Below are positions 43,380 through 60,263 of a stretch of DNA of 64,000 nucleotides, piece by piece. The first letter of the stretch is position 1; every line of letters begins with the position of its first letter. The DNA comes from Natronorubrum texcoconense (GTDB lineage Archaea; Halobacteriota; Halobacteria; Halobacteriales; Natrialbaceae). Below the pieces are notes generated by a model. That model did no database searches and had not been told where the DNA came from. It saw only the letters and a list, made by a program, of their open reading frames with translations. The stretch is from positions 1-64,000 of the forward strand of contig NZ_FNFE01000008.1 in assembly GCF_900100335.1 (NCBI RefSeq). Reading direction: 5' to 3'. Both the position numbers and the translations under genes were made by a program.

Positions 43380-46300
43380 TCATCCGCCAACCGGTAGCTC
43401 GAGCTCGGTCTCGTCCGAAATGCACTCGTCCGATTCGCCCTGTTCGTCCGGCTCGAAGCTCGCACCCACGTCGTTCCACGCCGTCGAACACTCCTCGCGA
43501 GGGACGTCGAGAGTCGTCGACTGCCACATATCGCCGACGCCGGGCGTCCCTCGCGGGAGCAACTGGGGACTCGGGACGACGACCGGGACGACGAGGCGGT
43601 TCTCGAAGCCGATGGGCTCGACGGAGCCGACCGCGAGTTCGTCCTGATCGGCCCACGGGGGCGTCTCGAGGGAGACCCGCGTGTCTTGGCGAACGTACGT
43701 CGTCTCGTCGCTGGCCGCGGGGTCACCGCTGTTCGCCCGAACCTCGAAGCGGGCGTACTCGCCCTGCACTTCGAGAGAGTAGACGTCGAGTTGCAGGAAC
43801 GACAGCGACGGAACGGGGAGGAGCGGCAGTCCCGGGAAGCCGACGGCGTTGAAGTAGCCCGCCCCCATCGAGGCGTGTTCGCTCGTCGGATCGGCCTCGA
43901 GTAGCGTTCCGCCTTCCGGACGGACCGCAGGGACGTCGCTTCGGTTGACGGGCTCGAGCGAGAGGTACGTCGGCGAGGCTTCGACCTGATAGCTGGTCGC
44001 TTCTAGTAGCTCCGAGTCCGGAGCTGGCGCCCGTGCGTCTTCGGGTTGGCTCTCGGGATCGAGCATCGATTCGACGAACTCCAACGGCGCGCCGAGCAGG
44101 TCGTTGCCCGCGTCGAGCAACCCACCGAGCAGGTCGTCGATCATCCCGGCCCCGCCGTCGATCGTCTCCTCGTGATAACTTTCGACCGTCTCGATGTGCT
44201 CGTAGATCGCCTCGAAGTACTGTTTCCGGACTTCGGCCCGAAGTAGGTCGGCGGTGTTCTCGTAGCTTCCCGTCGTGTTCTCGTAGACGAGTTCGTTCTC
44301 GACGCTTCGGACGTTGTCTTCGACCTCGCCGAGCGGACTCGGTTGCTCGAGCATACTCCAGAGATTGGTCTCGTGGGGTGCGACCGACGTGACGACCGCT
44401 TCGTGCGTTCGGTTGAGTTCGCCGATCACCCAGTCGTAGAGCAGGGTTCTGTCCCGCGGCTCGACGTCGACGTCCGGATCGCTCGAGTACGGAATCGCGC
44501 GCTCGAGGTCGCTCTCGGTGACGATCGACCGGCTCGAGCCTTCGATCTCGTCCTCGAGTTCGCGTTCCTGTGCACCCACCGACGTCGCATCGAGATCGAA
44601 CGTTTCGCCGGCGGCATCCGTTTCGATACCGTCGAAGTTGCCGACGAAACCGTACGACTCGTTCCACGAATCGGTACCGAACGGAGACTCGAGTCCTCGT
44701 TCGCGTTCGACGTCGATGTTTTCCGCGAGATCAGCGTCGATCTCGTAGCTCGCGCTGTACGTTACCGGCCGTTTCCAGTCCGTTCGAACCTGTTCGAGGG
44801 GGACCGTCACGTTCGTTATCGGATCGAGGAACGTCTCGTTGTCGTGTCGCCACGTCTCGATCACACCGACGTCGGTCTCGTACGCGAGTTCGACCTCCGT
44901 GAGCTCCCGATCGTCGAACCCGGCCCCATCGTCGGAGACGACGTCGATCGAAACGCTGGCGTCGCCGCCGCTGGTCGTATAGCTGCGATCGATTCGAGAC
45001 CAGTTTTCACCCGGCCGCTCCGTCTCCGGCAGCTGATCGTGTTTGGTCGGTCCCGTTTCGCTCGTGTCGATCTCGACGTCGTAGACGCTCTCCATGCTGT
45101 CGTCTGTCAGATCGCTCATGGGTGCGGTCTCGTCGATTAGTTCCTCGAGATCGGCCAGTTGCTCGCCGAGCCCGTCGATGGCGTCCGCCGCGTCCTGATT
45201 CGCCGGCTCGTCGGCGAAGTAGTCCTCCAGATAGACGCCGCTGAACCGCTCGTGGCCTTCGAGCGAGTCGTTGAACTCGGATTCGACGTCGTCCATCGCG
45301 AGCCCCGCGACCAGCTCCATGTACGCGATGTCGGCGAACGGGTGGGCCTGAATTTCGACGTCGGTGTCGACGTTGTCCTCGAGGAGCGTGAGGACGATTT
45401 CCTGGATCGTCGGCGGCTCCGGATAGTCGATCTCTCCTTCGGTGTCGATGAAGTCGCTCTCACAGAGTCCATCCGACTCGTTGATCTCGTCCTCGAGTTG
45501 CTCGCCCAGGAGTTCGTCGAGGTCGATATCGCCCGCTTCCGATGCGAGATCGTTCGCCATGCAGATCGTCGGCAGGAACGTCGCGTGATGCTCGTACGGA
45601 TCTGCCGTTCCGAACGAGGCCTCTTGCAGCGCGAAGACGGCGTCGTTCGCCATCACCTCGGTGTGCTCGTTCGGCGTGAGGTTGTGAAACGTTCGATCGT
45701 TGCTCACGAGGCGATCGTAGTACGCCTTCCCCCAGACGTAGGGGTACATTCGCGCCGCGAAGTAGCGACCGAACCCGTCGTAGAACTCGTCGGCCTCGAA
45801 GAAGCCGGTCTCGAGTTGTTCCTCGAACTCGCTCGTCCGATCGCGTAACTCGAGGGCGTTCGTTCCCACCGAGACCGTGATATCACGCCGCTCGCTGACG
45901 GTCTCCTCGCCGTCGTGCTCGACGGTGAGTTCGACGTCTTCGACCGTCGCGGTGAGCACGTCGTCGTCCGTTTGCTCGAGATCGATCCGATCGATGGCAC
46001 TCTCGAGGTCGTCGCCGTCGTCCCAGTCGAGCCGTTCGACCGACGCGACCGCGGTTCGGTCGTGACCGATCTCCTGTTCGGCGCTGGCGAGTGACACCGC
46101 GACGTCGCGGTAGATACGGAGCGCGAGATACTGCTCGAACACGTCGTCGGAATCGACCGCATCGGCGAACGCCGTGTCGGCGCCGTCCGTCGAACTGACC
46201 GGTTCCTTGGCGGCGTCGTCCGTCGCACGGACGACCGCGTGACGAATTTCTCCGGTCGCGATCGATTCGGCTCTGTCGACCGCGAGCCCCTGATCGACGT

Positions 46301-46439
46301 CGACCTCCGGGCGGTCTCTGGACTCGAGTACGGCGACGATCGCGATACTGCTGACGAGCAGGAGAACTGCGAGCAGCGCGAACGGGATTCGCGCTCGATC
46401 GTCCGACGCGAGTGAGACGGTCCGCGGTCGCCCGCTCAT
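43380..46439 (-). CDS. Large membrane-anchored haloarchaeal envelope protein (DUF7286-like)
   Basis: 1019 residues from the ATG at 46439, overlapping the upstream gene by 4 bp; a 200-residue Arg-rich stretch before it is a shadow. Residues about 18-36 (IPFALLAVLLLVSSIAIVAVLES) form a single N-terminal membrane anchor. The remainder is acidic with long charged stretches, cysteines in pairs (CMANDL, then LCESDF) and a C-terminal region with CISDETELELPVGG. It is typical of a large extracellular protein, and I recall it next to two smaller proteins near type IV pilus loci of haloarchaea. Function unknown. Confidence 0.75.
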   Translation of the reverse strand: MSGRPRTVSLASDDRARIPFALLAVLLLVSSIAIVAVLESRDRPEVDVDQGLAVDRAESIATGEIRHAVVRATDDAAKEPVSSTDGADTAFADAVDSDDVFEQYLALRIYRDVAVSLASAEQEIGHDRTAVASVERLDWDDGDDLESAIDRIDLEQTDDDVLTATVEDVELTVEHDGEETVSERRDITVSVGTNALELRDRTSEFEEQLETGFFEADEFYDGFGRYFAARMYPYVWGKAYYDRLVSNDRTFHNLTPNEHTEVMANDAVFALQEASFGTADPYEHHATFLPTICMANDLASEAGDIDLDELLGEQLEDEINESDGLCESDFIDTEGEIDYPEPPTIQEIVLTLLEDNVDTDVEIQAHPFADIAYMELVAGLAMDDVESEFNDSLEGHERFSGVYLEDYFADEPANQDAADAIDGLGEQLADLEELIDETAPMSDLTDDSMESVYDVEIDTSETGPTKHDQLPETERPGENWSRIDRSYTTSGGDASVSIDVVSDDGAGFDDRELTEVELAYETDVGVIETWRHDNETFLDPITNVTVPLEQVRTDWKRPVTYSASYEIDADLAENIDVERERGLESPFGTDSWNESYGFVGNFDGIETDAAGETFDLDATSVGAQERELEDEIEGSSRSIVTESDLERAIPYSSDPDVDVEPRDRTLLYDWVIGELNRTHEAVVTSVAPHETNLWSMLEQPSPLGEVEDNVRSVENELVYENTTGSYENTADLLRAEVRKQYFEAIYEHIETVESYHEETIDGGAGMIDDLLGGLLDAGNDLLGAPLEFVESMLDPESQPEDARAPAPDSELLEATSYQVEASPTYLSLEPVNRSDVPAVRPEGGTLLEADPTSEHASMGAGYFNAVGFPGLPLLPVPSLSFLQLDVYSLEVQGEYARFEVRANSGDPAASDETTYVRQDTRVSLETPPWADQDELAVGSVEPIGFENRLVVPVVVPSPQLLPRGTPGVGDMWQSTTLDVPREECSTAWNDVGASFEPDEQGESDECISDETELELPVGG

Positions 46440-47491
46440 GGCTGCCACGTCTGGACGGTGATCGTCACGTCGTCGGTCGATACCTCCTCGGCGAGCAGCG
46501 CCGCGACCGCCTCCTCTCGCTCGGCATCGTCGTCGGAGTCCTCGTCGATCGCCTCGAGTTCGTCCGCGAAGGCGGTTTCCAGGTCGTTTGCGATCCAGTC
46601 TGCGAGTCCCCTCGCTTCGGAGTCGGATTCGCTTTCGCCGTCGGAGCCGTAGAGCACGCGCTCGTTCGCCTCGAGCGCATCCGCATCGCTTCGGTTGAGC
46701 GGGCGCTCGTCGTCGGCATTCGTCTCCTCGCCGAACTCGTATTCTAGCGGGGCGACCAGTCGTTCGTAGTGGTAGACCGTGAGTTCTCGCGAGAGTCCCT
46801 GACTCTCGAGCGTTCGCTGGACCGAGTCTGCCGGAAGGTAGCCTTCGATAATCGCCGCACCGATGGCTGCTCCGGCGACCTCGAGTGCGTCGTCGTCGGA
46901 CCCGACGGATAGATCGGCTTCGTCGACGGCCGGAAGATCGCTCGAGGCCGTGATCGTGCGACTCGAGACGTCCTCGTCCGGCGGCGGTCGCTCGCCAGCC
47001 GTCGCCGTGCCGTTGATCGCCGCGCCATTGTACGGTTCCCATTCGGCGACGACGTAGAACTCGTGGTTCGCGCCGAGGAGGGCACTCTTAGTGGAGGCGT
47101 CGACGGCGTCTTCGAAGTCGTCGGCGTACGGCAGTATCTGGTCGCCGTCGATGTGGAGGTTCGTGACTGCCGCGTCGGCGAGCAGCCCGGTCGCCGAGCC
47201 GAAGTCGGTTCGGGTGTAGTTGCCGTCGCGCTCGTCGACGGGGTCGGCAGCCCCGAGATCGTACTCGACGCTGAGCGTCACTGCAGCCAGCGTCTCCACC
47301 GTTCTGTCGGGCCGGGTTTCGTCGCGGTCGTCGTCCGCCGCGTGGAGATAGGCGCCGAGCAGGAGGACGCTCGCGCTGACGAGCAGCAGTGCCATCGCGA
47401 CGTCTACGACCGTGCTGACACCCCGTTCGGTGTGCCGGTTACGTCGTGTGCTTCGATCCCTACGCGGTGACGAGCGTGACACGGTACTCAC
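46436..47491 (-). CDS. Envelope protein with prepilin-like signal (DUF7284-like)
   Basis: 351 residues starting at GTG 47491. RRNRHTERG followed by VSTVVDVAMALLLVSASVL is a type III (prepilin peptidase) signal: basic residues, Gly at -1, then a hydrophobic stretch of about 20. The mature part is acidic and has a possible Asp/Glu-rich C-terminal half. It overlaps the upstream gene by 32 bp and the downstream gene by 4 bp. This organisation suggests translational coupling of three parts of one surface structure. Confidence 0.78.
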   Translation of the reverse strand: MSTVSRSSPRRDRSTRRNRHTERGVSTVVDVAMALLLVSASVLLLGAYLHAADDDRDETRPDRTVETLAAVTLSVEYDLGAADPVDERDGNYTRTDFGSATGLLADAAVTNLHIDGDQILPYADDFEDAVDASTKSALLGANHEFYVVAEWEPYNGAAINGTATAGERPPPDEDVSSRTITASSDLPAVDEADLSVGSDDDALEVAGAAIGAAIIEGYLPADSVQRTLESQGLSRELTVYHYERLVAPLEYEFGEETNADDERPLNRSDADALEANERVLYGSDGESESDSEARGLADWIANDLETAFADELEAIDEDSDDDAEREEAVAALLAEEVSTDDVTITVQTWQP

Positions 47492-48431
47492 CCGATTGGG
47501 CGTCCTGCGCTATCTCCGCGGCGTCGCTGGCGATGTCGGCCGTGATCGATCCACCCTCGCAAATGTCAGCGAACCCGTGACTGCTCTCGAGCCGACCTTC
47601 GCACTCGAGGGAGCCGTCGGTGTAAACCCCGACGGCGATGGGGTAGACGAACGCGTTCTGGTTTTCGCCGGTTTCGGAGAGAATCGGTACCTCGAAATCG
47701 GTTTGCGAGCCGTCTGCGGTATCCGTCTCGCTCTTGGTCACCAACAGCTCGTTGTCGCCGCCGTGTTCGACGTCGTCGAAATCTCGGTTTCCGTGACCGG
47801 CGTACTCGAATCCGGTGAGCACGACTTCGATCTCGGCTCCCGATGCAGCCGTGTAGCGAACCGTCGCTTCGGTGGCAGCCGTGGACTCGAAACTTCTGGA
47901 GACGTTCTCGGCCCGATCGATAGAGCCGGCGGTCTCGACCGTTGTTCCCGCTTCCGCCTCGACTTCGAGCGTTCGAACGGCCAGTTCGCCGTCTGCGAGG
48001 TTCCACTCACCGTCGCTTTCCTCGTGAGCCTCGACGAGATCGGCCAGGAACTCGCCCTCGACGTCCTGTCGATCGGTCTCGACGGCGTCGCCGTAGGCAG
48101 ACTCGAGCGACGCGCCGCGAGCGACCGCCTCGAGTCGTTCGTTCCCCACGACGGGAACGACGGTTCCGTACGCGAGACTCGAGCGGGCGGTTCCGTGTTC
48201 GTTTCGCAGCGAGACGGTGGGTCCCTCGAATTTGACTTCCGCGGCGTCGTGGCCGTACGTCGCGCTGGCGTCGTGCGTGGTCCCGGCAACGCGGTCGATC
48301 GTGTTCGCGGCCTGATTCGCGTCCGGCGGCGGGCCCGTCGGGAGCCCGAGTACGAGACCGGCGAGCCCCACACTGACGATGCTGACGGCCAGCCAGACGT
48401 ACCACGCGTCGGCCGGAGTCTCCCAATCCAT
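47460..48431 (-). CDS. Membrane-anchored envelope protein (DUF7283-like), first gene of the operon
   Basis: 323 residues from the ATG at 48431. One N-terminal membrane segment (VWLAVSIVSVGLAGLVLGLP) is followed by an acidic extracellular domain with a conserved-looking SLRNEHGTARSSLAYGTVVPV segment and two cysteines near the end (LECEGRL, then ADICEGG) that could form a disulfide. The strong TATA box about 26 bp upstream marks it as the first gene of the three-gene operon. Function unknown; a pilus-like or surface-attachment role is suspected from the neighbour's signal. Confidence 0.78.
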   Translation of the reverse strand: MDWETPADAWYVWLAVSIVSVGLAGLVLGLPTGPPPDANQAANTIDRVAGTTHDASATYGHDAAEVKFEGPTVSLRNEHGTARSSLAYGTVVPVVGNERLEAVARGASLESAYGDAVETDRQDVEGEFLADLVEAHEESDGEWNLADGELAVRTLEVEAEAGTTVETAGSIDRAENVSRSFESTAATEATVRYTAASGAEIEVVLTGFEYAGHGNRDFDDVEHGGDNELLVTKSETDTADGSQTDFEVPILSETGENQNAFVYPIAVGVYTDGSLECEGRLESSHGFADICEGGSITADIASDAAEIAQDAQSGEYRVTLVTA

Positions 48432-53712: not shown

Positions 53713-54585
53713 ATGGACGGCCGCGCCGTCGCCCCAGCAGCCGGAACGGTTCTCAACGCCCTCGCAACCGGGACCGGCGCTGCGTTCGCGATTGACCTCG
53801 AGACGACAGCCACCGTCGAACTCACGACCGACGGGAGTATCGACGCCGAAATCGCCGGCCAACCCGACGCAGATACGGTGCTCGTCGAGCGCTGTGCTGA
53901 ACTGACGATCGACGAGTACGCCGAGATCGCAGGACTGGACGCTTCGGCCGTCGGCGCTCGCGTCCGAACCGAGAGCGAGGTGCCGATGGCGTCGGGGCTG
54001 AAGAGCTCGAGCGCCGCGGCGAACGCGACCGTGCTCGCGACACTCGATGCCCTCGAGATCGTCGGCACGGTCGAGCGAATTGACGCCTGTCGACTGGGTG
54101 TCCGTGCGGCCCGCGACGCCGGCGTCACGGTTACGGGTGCGTTCGACGACGCCAGCGCGAGCATGCTCGGCGGCGTGACGGTCACCGACAACTTGGGCGA
54201 TGAGTTGCTCGCTCGCGAGGAAATCGACTGGTCGGCGTTGGTGTACATCCCGCCAGAACAGTCGTTCAGCGCCGACGCCGACGTCTCGGCCTGCGAGCGG
54301 ATCGCCCCGATGGCGGATCTCGTCGCGGAACTCGCGCTCGACGGTCGCTACGGCGAGGCCATGACCGTCAACGGCTTTGCCTTCTGTGGCGCCCTCGAGT
54401 TCTCGACCGGCCCGATGATCGACGCCCTGCCCGACGTCACGGGCGTCTCGCTGTCGGGAACCGGGCCGAGTTACGTCGCCGTCGGCGACCAGGACACGCT
54501 CGAGACGGTTCGTGAACGGTGGGCGGAACGGGATGGAACGACACGATTACTGCGGACGCGGACAGACGGAGCACAAGTGATATGA
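53713..54585 (+). CDS. aroK: Archaeal shikimate kinase (GHMP type)
   Basis: 290 residues. VPMASGLKSSSAAANATVLATLDA is the GHMP ATP-binding loop and helix. APAAGTVLNALATGTGAAFAIDL at the start and SLSGTGPSYVAVG at the end match archaeal shikimate kinase, which is unrelated to bacterial AroK. It phosphorylates shikimate in aromatic amino acid synthesis. Its stop overlaps the chorismate mutase start (ATGA), so the two pathway genes are coupled. Confidence 0.93.
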   Translation: MDGRAVAPAAGTVLNALATGTGAAFAIDLETTATVELTTDGSIDAEIAGQPDADTVLVERCAELTIDEYAEIAGLDASAVGARVRTESEVPMASGLKSSSAAANATVLATLDALEIVGTVERIDACRLGVRAARDAGVTVTGAFDDASASMLGGVTVTDNLGDELLAREEIDWSALVYIPPEQSFSADADVSACERIAPMADLVAELALDGRYGEAMTVNGFAFCGALEFSTGPMIDALPDVTGVSLSGTGPSYVAVGDQDTLETVRERWAERDGTTRLLRTRTDGAQVI

Positions 54586-54908
54586 CTCGAGACCCAGAGA
54601 CAGCCACGGACGGCGGCGAGACGGAGCGAACACCGGACGAGATGAGCCTCGACGAACTGCGCGAGGAGATCCAGACGATCGATCGCGAGATCGTCGAACT
54701 GATCGCGCAGCGAACGTACGTCGCGGATACGATCGCACAGGTCAAAGACGAGCAGAATCTGCCGACGACCGACGAGAAGCAAGAACAGCAGGTGATGGAG
54801 CGCGCGGGAGCCAACGCAAAACAGTTCGACGTCGACGACAATCTTGTAAAGGCGATCTTCCGACTGTTGATCGAACTGAACAAAGTTGAGCAGCGTGAGA
54901 ACCGGTAG
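54582..54908 (+). CDS. aroQ: Chorismate mutase (AroQ class)
   Basis: 108 residues from the ATG at 54582, overlapping aroK by 4 bp. SLDELREEIQTIDREIVELIAQRTYVADTIAQVKDEQNLPTTDEKQEQQV is the first two helices of the AroQ fold with the Arg and Lys that bind chorismate. IELNKVEQRENR is the end of the third helix. It converts chorismate to prephenate for Phe and Tyr synthesis. The 3' end (54876-54922) is repeated at 55628-55674, bordering a toxin-antitoxin insert. Confidence 0.93.
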   Translation: MTRDPETATDGGETERTPDEMSLDELREEIQTIDREIVELIAQRTYVADTIAQVKDEQNLPTTDEKQEQQVMERAGANAKQFDVDDNLVKAIFRLLIELNKVEQRENR

Positions 54909-57287: not shown

Positions 57288-58757
57288 CTACACTTCTTTC
57301 GAGGAAAGCGTCTCACGCGCCTGCTCACGCGAGACCGGGTCGTGACTGTCGAGGATAGCGGCCGCGTTCTCGTAGCTCGGCGCTCGTTCGAGCGTCTCGT
57401 AGTTGTTGTATCTGGTCGCCGTATAATCGGCGTACGCGTTGGAGTTGAACTGTTCGTTCAACTCGAGACAGTGGTCGCGAACCGTCCGTTCGGGCTCGAA
57501 TCCTAGTTCCGTCCGGATCTTCTCGAACTCCACGCGATAGCTCCGTTCGTCGGTGAGTTCGTCGTGGTACTCGATCGAAGCGTCGGGGAAGCAGTCGGCG
57601 ACGATGGTCGCGAGTTCGTCGATCCGGTAGTTCTGCTGGTTCGACCCGACGTTGTACACGGTGTCGGCAACGTCATCGATCGGCGCGGTTAGGCAGTCGA
57701 CGTACGCCCGAGCGGCGTCTGCGACGTGGACGTTCGGTCGGTACTGATCGCCGCCGAACACCGGGATCGTTCCCTCAGTATGGGCCTTGGCCGGCAGGAT
57801 GTTTCCGACGAGATCGAATCGCATCCGCGGCGACTGGCCGTAGATCGTTGCCATCCGGAGGATCGTCGGGGAGAAGTGCTCGTCGGCGAGGTCGTGGAGC
57901 ACGCGCTCGGACTGAATCTTCAGCCGAGCGTACAGCGAGACCGGATTTCGTGGCGATTCCTCGGAGAGGCGCTCGGCTTCGGTCTCGGAGCGTCCGTAAA
58001 CGCTGCAGGTCGAAGCGAAAACGAAGCGGTTGATGCCGTGGTACTTACAAATCGACGCCAGCAGCTGCGTCGAGTGGAGGTTGTACTCGAGGGTCTTCTC
58101 CGGATCGATCTCGGAGGCCGGATCGCCGACGATGCCGCCGAGGTGGACGACGGCGTCGACCCCGTCGATCGCCTCGAGAACGGTATCGATCGATCGGGCA
58201 TCGCCTCGATACAAGGTGAACCGATCGTCGTCGCGGAGCCCGCTGATGCCCGCGTCGCCGTACATCAACGGATCGAGCACGCGAACGTCGAACCCGTCCT
58301 CGAGAAGTTGTCGGCAGAGCACCGAGCCGAGATATCCAGCTCCACCGACGACGAGAACCGTGTCGACGGCGTTCGAATTCGGTTCGACTTCTCGGGTCAC
58401 GTCGTCGATCAACTCGATCGTCGTGACGTCGGTGACTCGTTCGTCGCCGTCGACCACGGGCGCGATGGTCGTCTGCTGTGCTCGATCGTTGCCCTCGAGA
58501 GCGTCCGATGCCCCTTCCACTGTTCGGATACTCCCGCTCGTATCGACGACGATGGGATCGTCGTTCACTACGTCCGAAATCGGCGTATCTGGTGTAACCC
58601 CCTCGAATAGTTTTTGCCTGAGTCGCTCGTCGGTCGCGGTCCCAACGAGTTGGTTCCCGTCGTCGACGACAACGATACCCCCTGCTTCGGATCGATCGAT
58701 CCGTGAAAGTGCGGTCCGGATCGACATCCGCGAATCGGCTGTGACTGGCCATCTCAT
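57288..58757 (-). CDS. CBS-domain/NAD-dependent epimerase fusion
   Basis: 489 residues from the ATG at 58757; a GTG at 58823 would add 22 basic residues. Residues about 10-125 are a CBS pair (MSIRTALSRIDRSEAGGIVVVDD, then QLVGTATDERLRQKLFEG and ISDVVNDDPIVVDT). The remainder is an extended SDR: VVGGAGYLGSVLCRQLLEDGF, VVHLGGIVGDPASEID, FASTCSVYGRSETE and YARLKIQSE (YxxxK). CBS pairs usually precede sugar nucleotidyltransferases in polysaccharide loci, so this fusion to an epimerase is unusual and suggests adenine-nucleotide control. An ATAACAAA box lies upstream. Confidence 0.88.
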   Translation of the reverse strand: MRWPVTADSRMSIRTALSRIDRSEAGGIVVVDDGNQLVGTATDERLRQKLFEGVTPDTPISDVVNDDPIVVDTSGSIRTVEGASDALEGNDRAQQTTIAPVVDGDERVTDVTTIELIDDVTREVEPNSNAVDTVLVVGGAGYLGSVLCRQLLEDGFDVRVLDPLMYGDAGISGLRDDDRFTLYRGDARSIDTVLEAIDGVDAVVHLGGIVGDPASEIDPEKTLEYNLHSTQLLASICKYHGINRFVFASTCSVYGRSETEAERLSEESPRNPVSLYARLKIQSERVLHDLADEHFSPTILRMATIYGQSPRMRFDLVGNILPAKAHTEGTIPVFGGDQYRPNVHVADAARAYVDCLTAPIDDVADTVYNVGSNQQNYRIDELATIVADCFPDASIEYHDELTDERSYRVEFEKIRTELGFEPERTVRDHCLELNEQFNSNAYADYTATRYNNYETLERAPSYENAAAILDSHDPVSREQARETLSSKEV

Positions 58758-58940: not shown

Positions 58941-60116
58941 TCAGCTCTGTATCGTATTCGACTGGGCCCCACCGGCAGCCCTGTCACGCTCGAGACCGTC
59001 TCTGACGCCGGTTGTGATCCGATCGATCTCGTCGTCGCGTAGTCCCGGATGAATTGGAAGCGAGAGGACCCGTCCTGCGATCTCTTCGGTGACGGGAAGC
59101 GAACCCGACTCGTAGCCGTACTCGTTGCGGTACGCTCGCGTGAGGTGAACGCTCGGATCCCAGTACACCTTCGACGCAATCCCTCGCTCGGTTAGGGTAT
59201 CGATAACGGCGTCTCGGTCGACCTGTTCGTCGAGCGTGACCGTGTACAGCTGGTAGACGTGGCGTCCACGACCGGCAGCTCCGTGGGGATCGACACCGTC
59301 GACAGCAGCGAGACCGTCGGACAGGCGTGACGCCACGCGTCGGCGGTTCGAGATGTGATCTTCGACTTTCCCGAGTTGCGCACAGCCGATACTCGCCACG
59401 AGGTCCGACATCCGGACGTTCGTCCCGACGCTGGTGTACTCGCCGCTATCGGGCGAGTCGAAGTACTCCGACGAGGCGCGACCGTGCGAGCGGTACCGCT
59501 CGAGACGGCGAGCGAGGTCGTCGTCGTCGGTAACGATGGCACCACCCTCACCCGTCGGCAGAACCTTGTTCTGGCAGAAACTGAGTATCGCCGCGTCACC
59601 GATCGTTCCTAGCGCCCTGCCGTGATAATCGGCCCCGAACGATTCGGCGACGTCCTCGATCAACGGGACGCCCGCGTCGGCAGCGATCTCCTCGAGTGGA
59701 CCGATCTCGCAGGCGGCGCCGTAGGGATGGATCGGTAAAATCGCCGCGGTGTCGTCAGTTATCCGCGCCTCGACGCGTTCGGGATCGAGGCCGTACGTCT
59801 CCCGCTCGATATCGGCGAACACCGGGGTGGCACCGACGAGTCGAACGGCGTTCGCGGTCGCGATAAACGTAAACGAAGGGACGATCACTTCATCACCCTC
59901 GCCGATACCGTACGCCGTCAGCGCGGCGACCAGCGCCGTCGTCCCCGAGTTGACGGTCACAGCGTGTTCGACCCCCAGATACCCCTCGAGTCCATTCTCG
60001 AACTCCTCGATGTACGGCCCGTTCGCCCAGTACGAACCCCGCGTGATCGAGTCGACGGCGTTCGAAACGTCGTCTTCGTCCCACGGGATTTCGAACAACG
60101 GAATCTCGTCACTCAT
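58941..60116 (-). CDS. DegT/DnrJ/EryC1 family sugar aminotransferase
   Basis: 391 residues from the ATG at 60116. VNSGTTALVAALTAYGIGEGDEVIVPSFTFIATANAV is the first conserved block. LIEDVAESFGADYHGRALG carries the pyridine Asp, and SFCQNKVLPTGEGGAI the PLP lysine (QNK). RMSDLVASIGCAQLGKVEDHISNRR is the dimer region. These enzymes aminate keto sugars linked to nucleotides, giving perosamine, viosamine or similar. It is upstream of the CBS-SDR gene on the same strand, and both probably belong to one nucleotide-sugar pathway. Confidence 0.93.
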   Translation of the reverse strand: MSDEIPLFEIPWDEDDVSNAVDSITRGSYWANGPYIEEFENGLEGYLGVEHAVTVNSGTTALVAALTAYGIGEGDEVIVPSFTFIATANAVRLVGATPVFADIERETYGLDPERVEARITDDTAAILPIHPYGAACEIGPLEEIAADAGVPLIEDVAESFGADYHGRALGTIGDAAILSFCQNKVLPTGEGGAIVTDDDDLARRLERYRSHGRASSEYFDSPDSGEYTSVGTNVRMSDLVASIGCAQLGKVEDHISNRRRVASRLSDGLAAVDGVDPHGAAGRGRHVYQLYTVTLDEQVDRDAVIDTLTERGIASKVYWDPSVHLTRAYRNEYGYESGSLPVTEEIAGRVLSLPIHPGLRDDEIDRITTGVRDGLERDRAAGGAQSNTIQS

Positions 60117-60263
60117 CGAGCGGTGATTCACCGGACTGCCGATTAAGTAGCCGTTCGCTACCGACAAAAATTTGACTATTTTGATGCTTGCAACTTCCTG
60201 CACAGTCGTTATCAGCACGGTTCTCTCGAGCTTCCAGGGTAATTTCGACGCTCCTCGAACTCG

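Follow-up and report, generated by a model that had tools for sequence, protein, structure and literature searches.

In many proteins CBS pairs bind adenine nucleotides, and the CBS nucleotide-binding motif, G-x-x-T-x-x-D, carries an Asp. Related CBS parts occur on two kinds of sugar-pathway enzyme. The CBS-nucleotidyltransferases of nonulosonate clusters (Azospirillum thermophilum, NZ_CP029359.1; a methanogen-side locus, L090) have a TDGD(I/V)RR CBS subtype, an NTP_transferase catalytic part and neighbors encoding a LegC-type aminotransferase, NeuC and a cytidylyltransferase. The KdsD/KpsF isomerases have a SIS catalytic part, and the CBS pair of an arabinose-5-phosphate isomerase has been solved (PDB 3k2v), presumably with CMP-Kdo bound. 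Among sugar-modifying SDRs, the 4,6-dehydratases (RmlB, GMD, LegB) use a catalytic Asp or Glu after the Ser/Thr. Cj1427, a GDP-D-glycero-D-manno-heptose C4-dehydrogenase (PDB 6vo6, 6vo8) from a bacterial capsule pathway, has no CBS part; its reaction is oxidation at C4 of GDP-heptose, and alpha-ketoglutarate was used in its assay (PMC10680097). In Halorubrum sp. PV6, the genes for the aminotransferase LegC and the SDR LegB follow each other in that order next to those for CMP-sugar synthetase, NeuC and NeuB, and LegB owes its dehydratase annotation to BLAST searches (PMC6137143).

Here we describe a gene from Natronorubrum texcoconense that joins the relic of a CBS pair to an SDR. It lies in a 64,000-nucleotide stretch (the window) of a 208,817-bp contig (NZ_FNFE01000008.1; G000:C8 in our numbering). 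The encoded protein shares the SDR fold, SPRMR and YxxxK with Cj1427, at 28–29% identity for the window model. Its ancestral relatives have the CBS subtype of the nucleotidyltransferases and isomerases, with an SDR in place of their NTP_transferase or SIS catalytic parts, whereas in the window protein the motif Asp is gone.

Domain architecture of the fused gene

The gene spans 57288..58757 on the (-) strand; its product of 489 aa starts at the ATG at 58757, a position supported by orthologues and by the RefSeq starts of orthologues. A preliminary description of the window, made from the sequence alone, had placed the ORF on this strand and read it as a CBS pair fused to a sugar epimerase; the ORF and strand hold. 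The first CBS domain (residues 1–66, 58560..58757) is degenerate. It accounts for the only Pfam CBS match (PF00571, residues 4–50, E = 6.6e-5), the 23.6 bits of which fall just below the gathering score of 24 bits. The NCBIfam kpsF model also matches residues 11–111 (E = 1.8e-5) because the kpsF isomerase family carries CBS domains. Residues 67–131 (58365..58559) comprise the relic of a second CBS domain and a linker, and a second CBS was not matched there in the Pfam scan; calling the N-terminal part a CBS pair overstates it, since only the first half gives a (weak) match.

The catalytic part, at residues 132–441 (57435..58364), is an extended SDR domain, as the preliminary description had recognized from GGAGYLG and YxxxK. 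GxxGxxG, YxxxK and the Pfam Epimerase profile (PF01370, residues 134–371, E = 6.6e-44) are all present, and the NTP_transferase catalytic domain is absent. Aligned motifs include GGAGYLG for dinucleotide binding (residues 138–144, 58326..58346), STCSVYG (57993..58013), YARLK with the catalytic YxxxK (Y276xxxK280, 57918..57932) and SPRMRFDL (57810..57833), the counterpart of SPRMRLDL in Cj1427. GGAGYLG, except at its L/I/V position, and YxxxK are kept in 33/33 fused orthologues, as are STCSVYG (T or S at residue 250) and SPRMRFDL. The 33-row alignment left out a 5'-truncated copy (L036, from genome G056) and a second copy in G073 (C1:669737, 76%).

Distribution and single origin of the fusion

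The CBS–SDR gene fusion is genuine and inherited. An ATG start opening the sequence M(R/K)W stands at the same place in 27/27 orthologues that share the window-type N-terminal part, and codons 12–164 of the window gene include no ATG, which rules out a mis-called start. RefSeq models on Haloterrigena turkmenica pHTUR04 and on a Natronorubrum daqingense plasmid use the same start and include the N-terminal part; their product names give SDR or epimerase only, with CBS unmentioned. The pooled dN/dS of the N-terminal part is below 1. The preliminary description had pointed to homologues devoid of the CBS part, with a start after it, as the sign of an error; the homologues instead carry the N-terminal part behind a conserved ATG.

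Within the family Natrialbaceae, 56/125 genomes gave matches at E ≤ 1e-40, and 28/125 contain a fused orthologue with its N-terminal part. A 29th orthologue (G056) is truncated; the other 28 comprise 27 of the window type and one canonical form (G015), and the remaining family matches are SDR-only relatives at about 37–44% identity. In the class-wide sample, the fused protein was found in 26/391 genomes at an identity of at least 52%, and the next ten genomes (42–49%) match the window protein in the SDR part only, in keeping with the earlier remark that the architecture is uncommon. It is real and old and, in the searches made here, confined to haloarchaea. Our literature search, which had most subscription papers outside its reach, found no CBS–SDR fusion named.

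In a tree of the SDR part, all fused proteins form one clade (support 98/99), which rules out recent separate fusions in each genus: the fusion has a single origin. The 27 window-type proteins form one clade (100/100), sister to G242/G245 (98/95), that branches from among the canonical members; the window form is thus the derived one.

Several observations concern individual copies and their replicons. The truncated L036 copy lacks the CBS part and the first half of the SDR, and its genome, G056, still has NeuB. The SDR–aminotransferase pair also occurs on plasmids of 160–212 kb, such as pHTUR04 and the N. daqingense plasmid, where shikimate kinase and chorismate mutase are encoded nearby; two ORFs of the window (53713–54908) read as the same enzymes, which hints at a possible origin of the window in a plasmid-like replicon. 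Neighboring (-) proteins at 43380–47042 and 47460–48431 match Pfam DUF7286 and DUF7283, respectively.

Canonical members and their CBS type

Six members (G015, G242, G245, G255, G317 and G398) have a canonical TDGDIR-type CBS and form the oldest branches of the fused clade; the G317 sequence is identical to L046 (Halobium salinum). PF00571 exceeds its cut-off, with one motif, in 4/6 of them and stays below it in 2/6. The closest solved structure to the canonical CBS is the isomerase CBS pair 3k2v (E = 2e-8). TDGD or SDGD followed by (I/L/V)RR is present in 2/2 CBS-nucleotidyltransferases, 2/2 other CBS fusions and 4/4 isomerase-like archaeal proteins examined, the last with TDGD(I/L)RR; the isomerase-like and cupin-like labels (L087–L089, L092, L094, L100) were assigned from motifs. 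In two loci (L087:1015-1797 and L088:1420-2211), an SDGDIRR-type CBS is joined to a different, putatively cupin-like C-terminal domain.

Against a small set of CBS proteins, the best BLAST match of the canonical CBS was an Azospirillum plasmid CBS-nucleotidyltransferase for 4/6 members, a methanogen-side CBS-nucleotidyltransferase for 1/6 and, for the sixth member, a CBS protein whose C-terminus looks cupin-like. The only match of the canonical form in the plasmid database was the CBS part of an Azospirillum 'nucleotidyltransferase family protein', encoded in a cluster with a LegC-type aminotransferase, NeuC and an acylneuraminate cytidylyltransferase. The likeness to CBS parts of sugar nucleotidyltransferases, noted in the preliminary description, is thus borne out. 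A separate CBS-nucleotidyltransferase donor was not found in Halobacteria, where the canonical CBS matches 16/391 class genomes (E ≤ 1e-8), all 16 through fused proteins.

Decay of the CBS half in the window's lineage

In the window's lineage the CBS pair has decayed to one weakly constrained half. The alignment column of the motif Asp reads D in 6/6 canonical members and R (24) or Q (2) in the 26 readable window-type proteins; Arg45 (58623..58625) occupies this place in the window protein. The denominator is 26 rather than 27 because the motif column of L019 is unreadable at a Nextera mosaic end. The second-half segment (CBS2) measures 33–98 aa in the 27 window-type proteins versus 64–68 aa in the six canonical ones. 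Pooled over eight independent pairs, dN/dS was 0.36 (0.24–0.53) for the first half (CBS1), 0.70 (0.53–0.97) for CBS2, 0.12 (0.09–0.14) for the SDR and 0.25 (0.17–0.37) for the C-tail. The low value in the SDR, together with catalytic motifs intact throughout the alignment, rules out plain pseudogene decay. In the sole canonical pair close enough for comparison (G242/G245), the CBS halves gave 0.32 and 0.45 and the SDR 0.14; since the CBS evolves faster in this pair too, the pattern extends beyond the window's clade, and dN/dS by itself is no proof of decay. AlphaFold confidence in the CBS region was middling, with block means of 41–83 for the window protein and 37–85 for L046, and pLDDT fell under 50 at residues 81–93 and 123–129 of the window protein.

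The L019 sequence (the same genome region as L048, Haloterrigena salina contig_54) contains a perfect 19-base Nextera mosaic end at L019:1483-1501, in the CBS region of the orthologue and adjoining the unreadable codon. This is an assembly artefact that mimics a deletion.

CBS1 is still under purifying selection and hence not simply junk; it may serve in the structure or in some changed form of binding. Nucleotide sensing would then be gone and the half-CBS retained as a structural or dimerization module, or as the binder of a new ligand, a possibility that we take seriously while thinking it improbable. The CBS1 dN/dS, the invariant M(R/K)W start and block-mean pLDDT values of 63–83 across CBS1 are in its favor, but the model is of a single chain only. 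Under the reading we prefer, that of a decaying sensor, the sensor half has been deprived of its key binding residue and of part of its fold and probably no longer reads the energy state of the cell.

Catalytic part and aminotransferase neighbor

By sequence, the best solved relative of the window protein is Cj1427 (E = 8.6e-36), followed by the UDP-GlcNAc C4-epimerase 6wjb (5.8e-31); the scores were 127 versus 111 bits, and 205 versus 139 with a profile. By fold, six Cj1427 chains top the Foldseek results for the models of both the window protein and L046 (TM 0.93 on target), with 6wjb close behind by fold score for the window model, at 30–31% identity versus 28–29% for Cj1427. Closest sequence, closest fold and the SPRMR motif all coincide in the window protein. 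Judged from these comparisons, the catalytic part is most similar to the NDP-heptose C4-dehydrogenase Cj1427, and the epimerase role given in the preliminary description is not established, the nearest solved structure being a C4-dehydrogenase.

A DegT/DnrJ/EryC1/StrS aminotransferase gene (58941..60218, (-) strand; PF01041, E = 9.3e-115; Lys218 in SFCQNK) lies 183 bp upstream on the same strand. Such a gene directly precedes the fused gene in 32/33 loci, L073 being the sole exception, and is found within about 1.3 kb of unfused haloarchaeal SDR relatives in 8/8 loci examined. The adjacency in the fused loci suggests a 4-amino-sugar route.

Could the SDR be an ordinary NDP-sugar C4 epimerase, with the neighboring aminotransferase acting on another substrate? 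We consider this unlikely. UDP-GlcNAc C4-epimerase structures do rank beside Cj1427 at similar identity, and the Epimerase profile is joined by a weak GalE match (TIGR01179, 125.2 bits, under the equivalog cut-off of 262.3), but the sequence and profile scores, the SPRMR motif shared with Cj1427 and the near-constant aminotransferase neighbor all argue against it. A LegB-like NDP-GlcNAc 4,6-dehydratase heading a legionaminic-acid route is very improbable. At L144, the order of aminotransferase, SDR and CMP-sugar synthetase near NeuC and NeuB resembles legC-legB-legF-legG of Halorubrum sp. PV6 (PMC6137143), a likeness in gene order. However, STCSVYG is without the Asp/Glu of the 4,6-dehydratase triad in 33/33 fused proteins, the LegB and RmlB equivalog cut-offs are unreached (LegB profile, 73.8 bits versus 475) and the window genome has no NeuB match.

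A different context was seen on three Deinococcus plasmids (L148, L149 and L152), where an SDR relative (38–42% identity) follows rfbF and overlaps lhgO, encoding L-2-hydroxyglutarate oxidase, in 3/3 cases. The overlap is a contextual hint that the SDR makes 2-hydroxyglutarate. No lhgO was present at four other unfused plasmid loci examined, two of which (Klebsiella variicola and Azospirillum oryzae) have a DegT aminotransferase nearby, and no lhgO orthologue was found near the window gene and no clear one in its genome (best match 28% identical).

Association with nonulosonic-acid synthesis

The canonical fusion is associated with NeuB, which is present in 6/6 canonical genomes versus 1/27 window-type genomes. 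Strong CTP_transf_3 matches (E < 1e-15, a threshold picked after seeing the table) show the same split, 6/6 versus 1/27, and weaker matches over the Pfam cut-off occur in G087, G093, G095, G071, G094 and G074. The lone window-type genome with both NeuB and a cytidylyltransferase, G091, is a MAG with 7% contamination. For NeuB, the raw hypergeometric probability of 6e-6 overstates the contrast: the 27 genomes make up a single clade, so that little more than one evolutionary change is counted, and only 17/125 genomes of the family have NeuB at all. In the window genome, neither NeuB nor a CTP_transf_3 match was found. In canonical loci, NeuB lies about 0.2–17 kb and the cytidylyltransferase about 0.03–9 kb from the fusion, both within 18 kb; the clusters of L046, L141 and L142 also include a polysaccharide deacetylase, an oxidoreductase and a formyltransferase.

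This setting of the canonical CBS points to a pathway metabolite rather than AMP or ATP as its ligand, contrary to the adenine nucleotide proposed in the preliminary description. That the pair binds AMP/ATP and tunes an epimerase to the energy state of the cell, as had been suggested, we regard as the least probable reading of all: a CBS match exists, but energy sensing is unsupported for the window protein given a motif Asp replaced in every readable member of its clade and a second half that Pfam does not recognize and that is hypervariable or shortened, and the canonical members sit in nonulosonate clusters.

Proposed history and implications

We propose that, in an ancestor of these haloarchaeal proteins, a Cj1427-like SDR whose gene would already have neighbored that of a PLP aminotransferase gained, at its N-terminus, a TDGDIRR-type CBS pair such as sugar-1-phosphate nucleotidyltransferases and arabinose-5-phosphate isomerases carry. 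With NAD tightly bound, the SDR most likely oxidizes an NDP-sugar at C4; the aminotransferase would then add nitrogen to the ketone to give a 4-amino sugar, and the alpha-ketoglutarate formed from glutamate could re-oxidize the NADH of the SDR. The CBS pair of the founding members probably responded to a product of the nonulosonic-acid pathway linked to it. The window's lineage would since have lost this pathway, retaining the SDR–aminotransferase pair for a different glycan while the CBS pair decayed. Taken as a whole, fusion ancestry, C4 oxidation toward a 4-amino sugar and sensor decay form an explanation about as likely to be right as wrong.

The most interesting part of the story lies outside the window, in the canonical members, whose CBS pair may be an end-product sensor of nonulosonic-acid synthesis. 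In its most specific form this idea is unlikely: the pair would be a swapped-in feedback sensor for a CMP-activated nonulosonic acid, of the type found on nucleotidyltransferases and on the Kdo-pathway isomerase, and the window's lineage would show such a sensor dying after its route was lost. If true, TDGDIRR CBS pairs would be portable end-product sensors of ulosonic-acid pathways and not energy sensors, and CBS pairs on sugar-pathway enzymes would be worth testing against CMP-ulosonic acids, beyond adenine nucleotides. Because one tree includes this enzyme with its sensor both intact and decayed, the two states can be compared directly, and the window protein, which fails the motif test, is a warning against inferring energy sensing from a CBS label.
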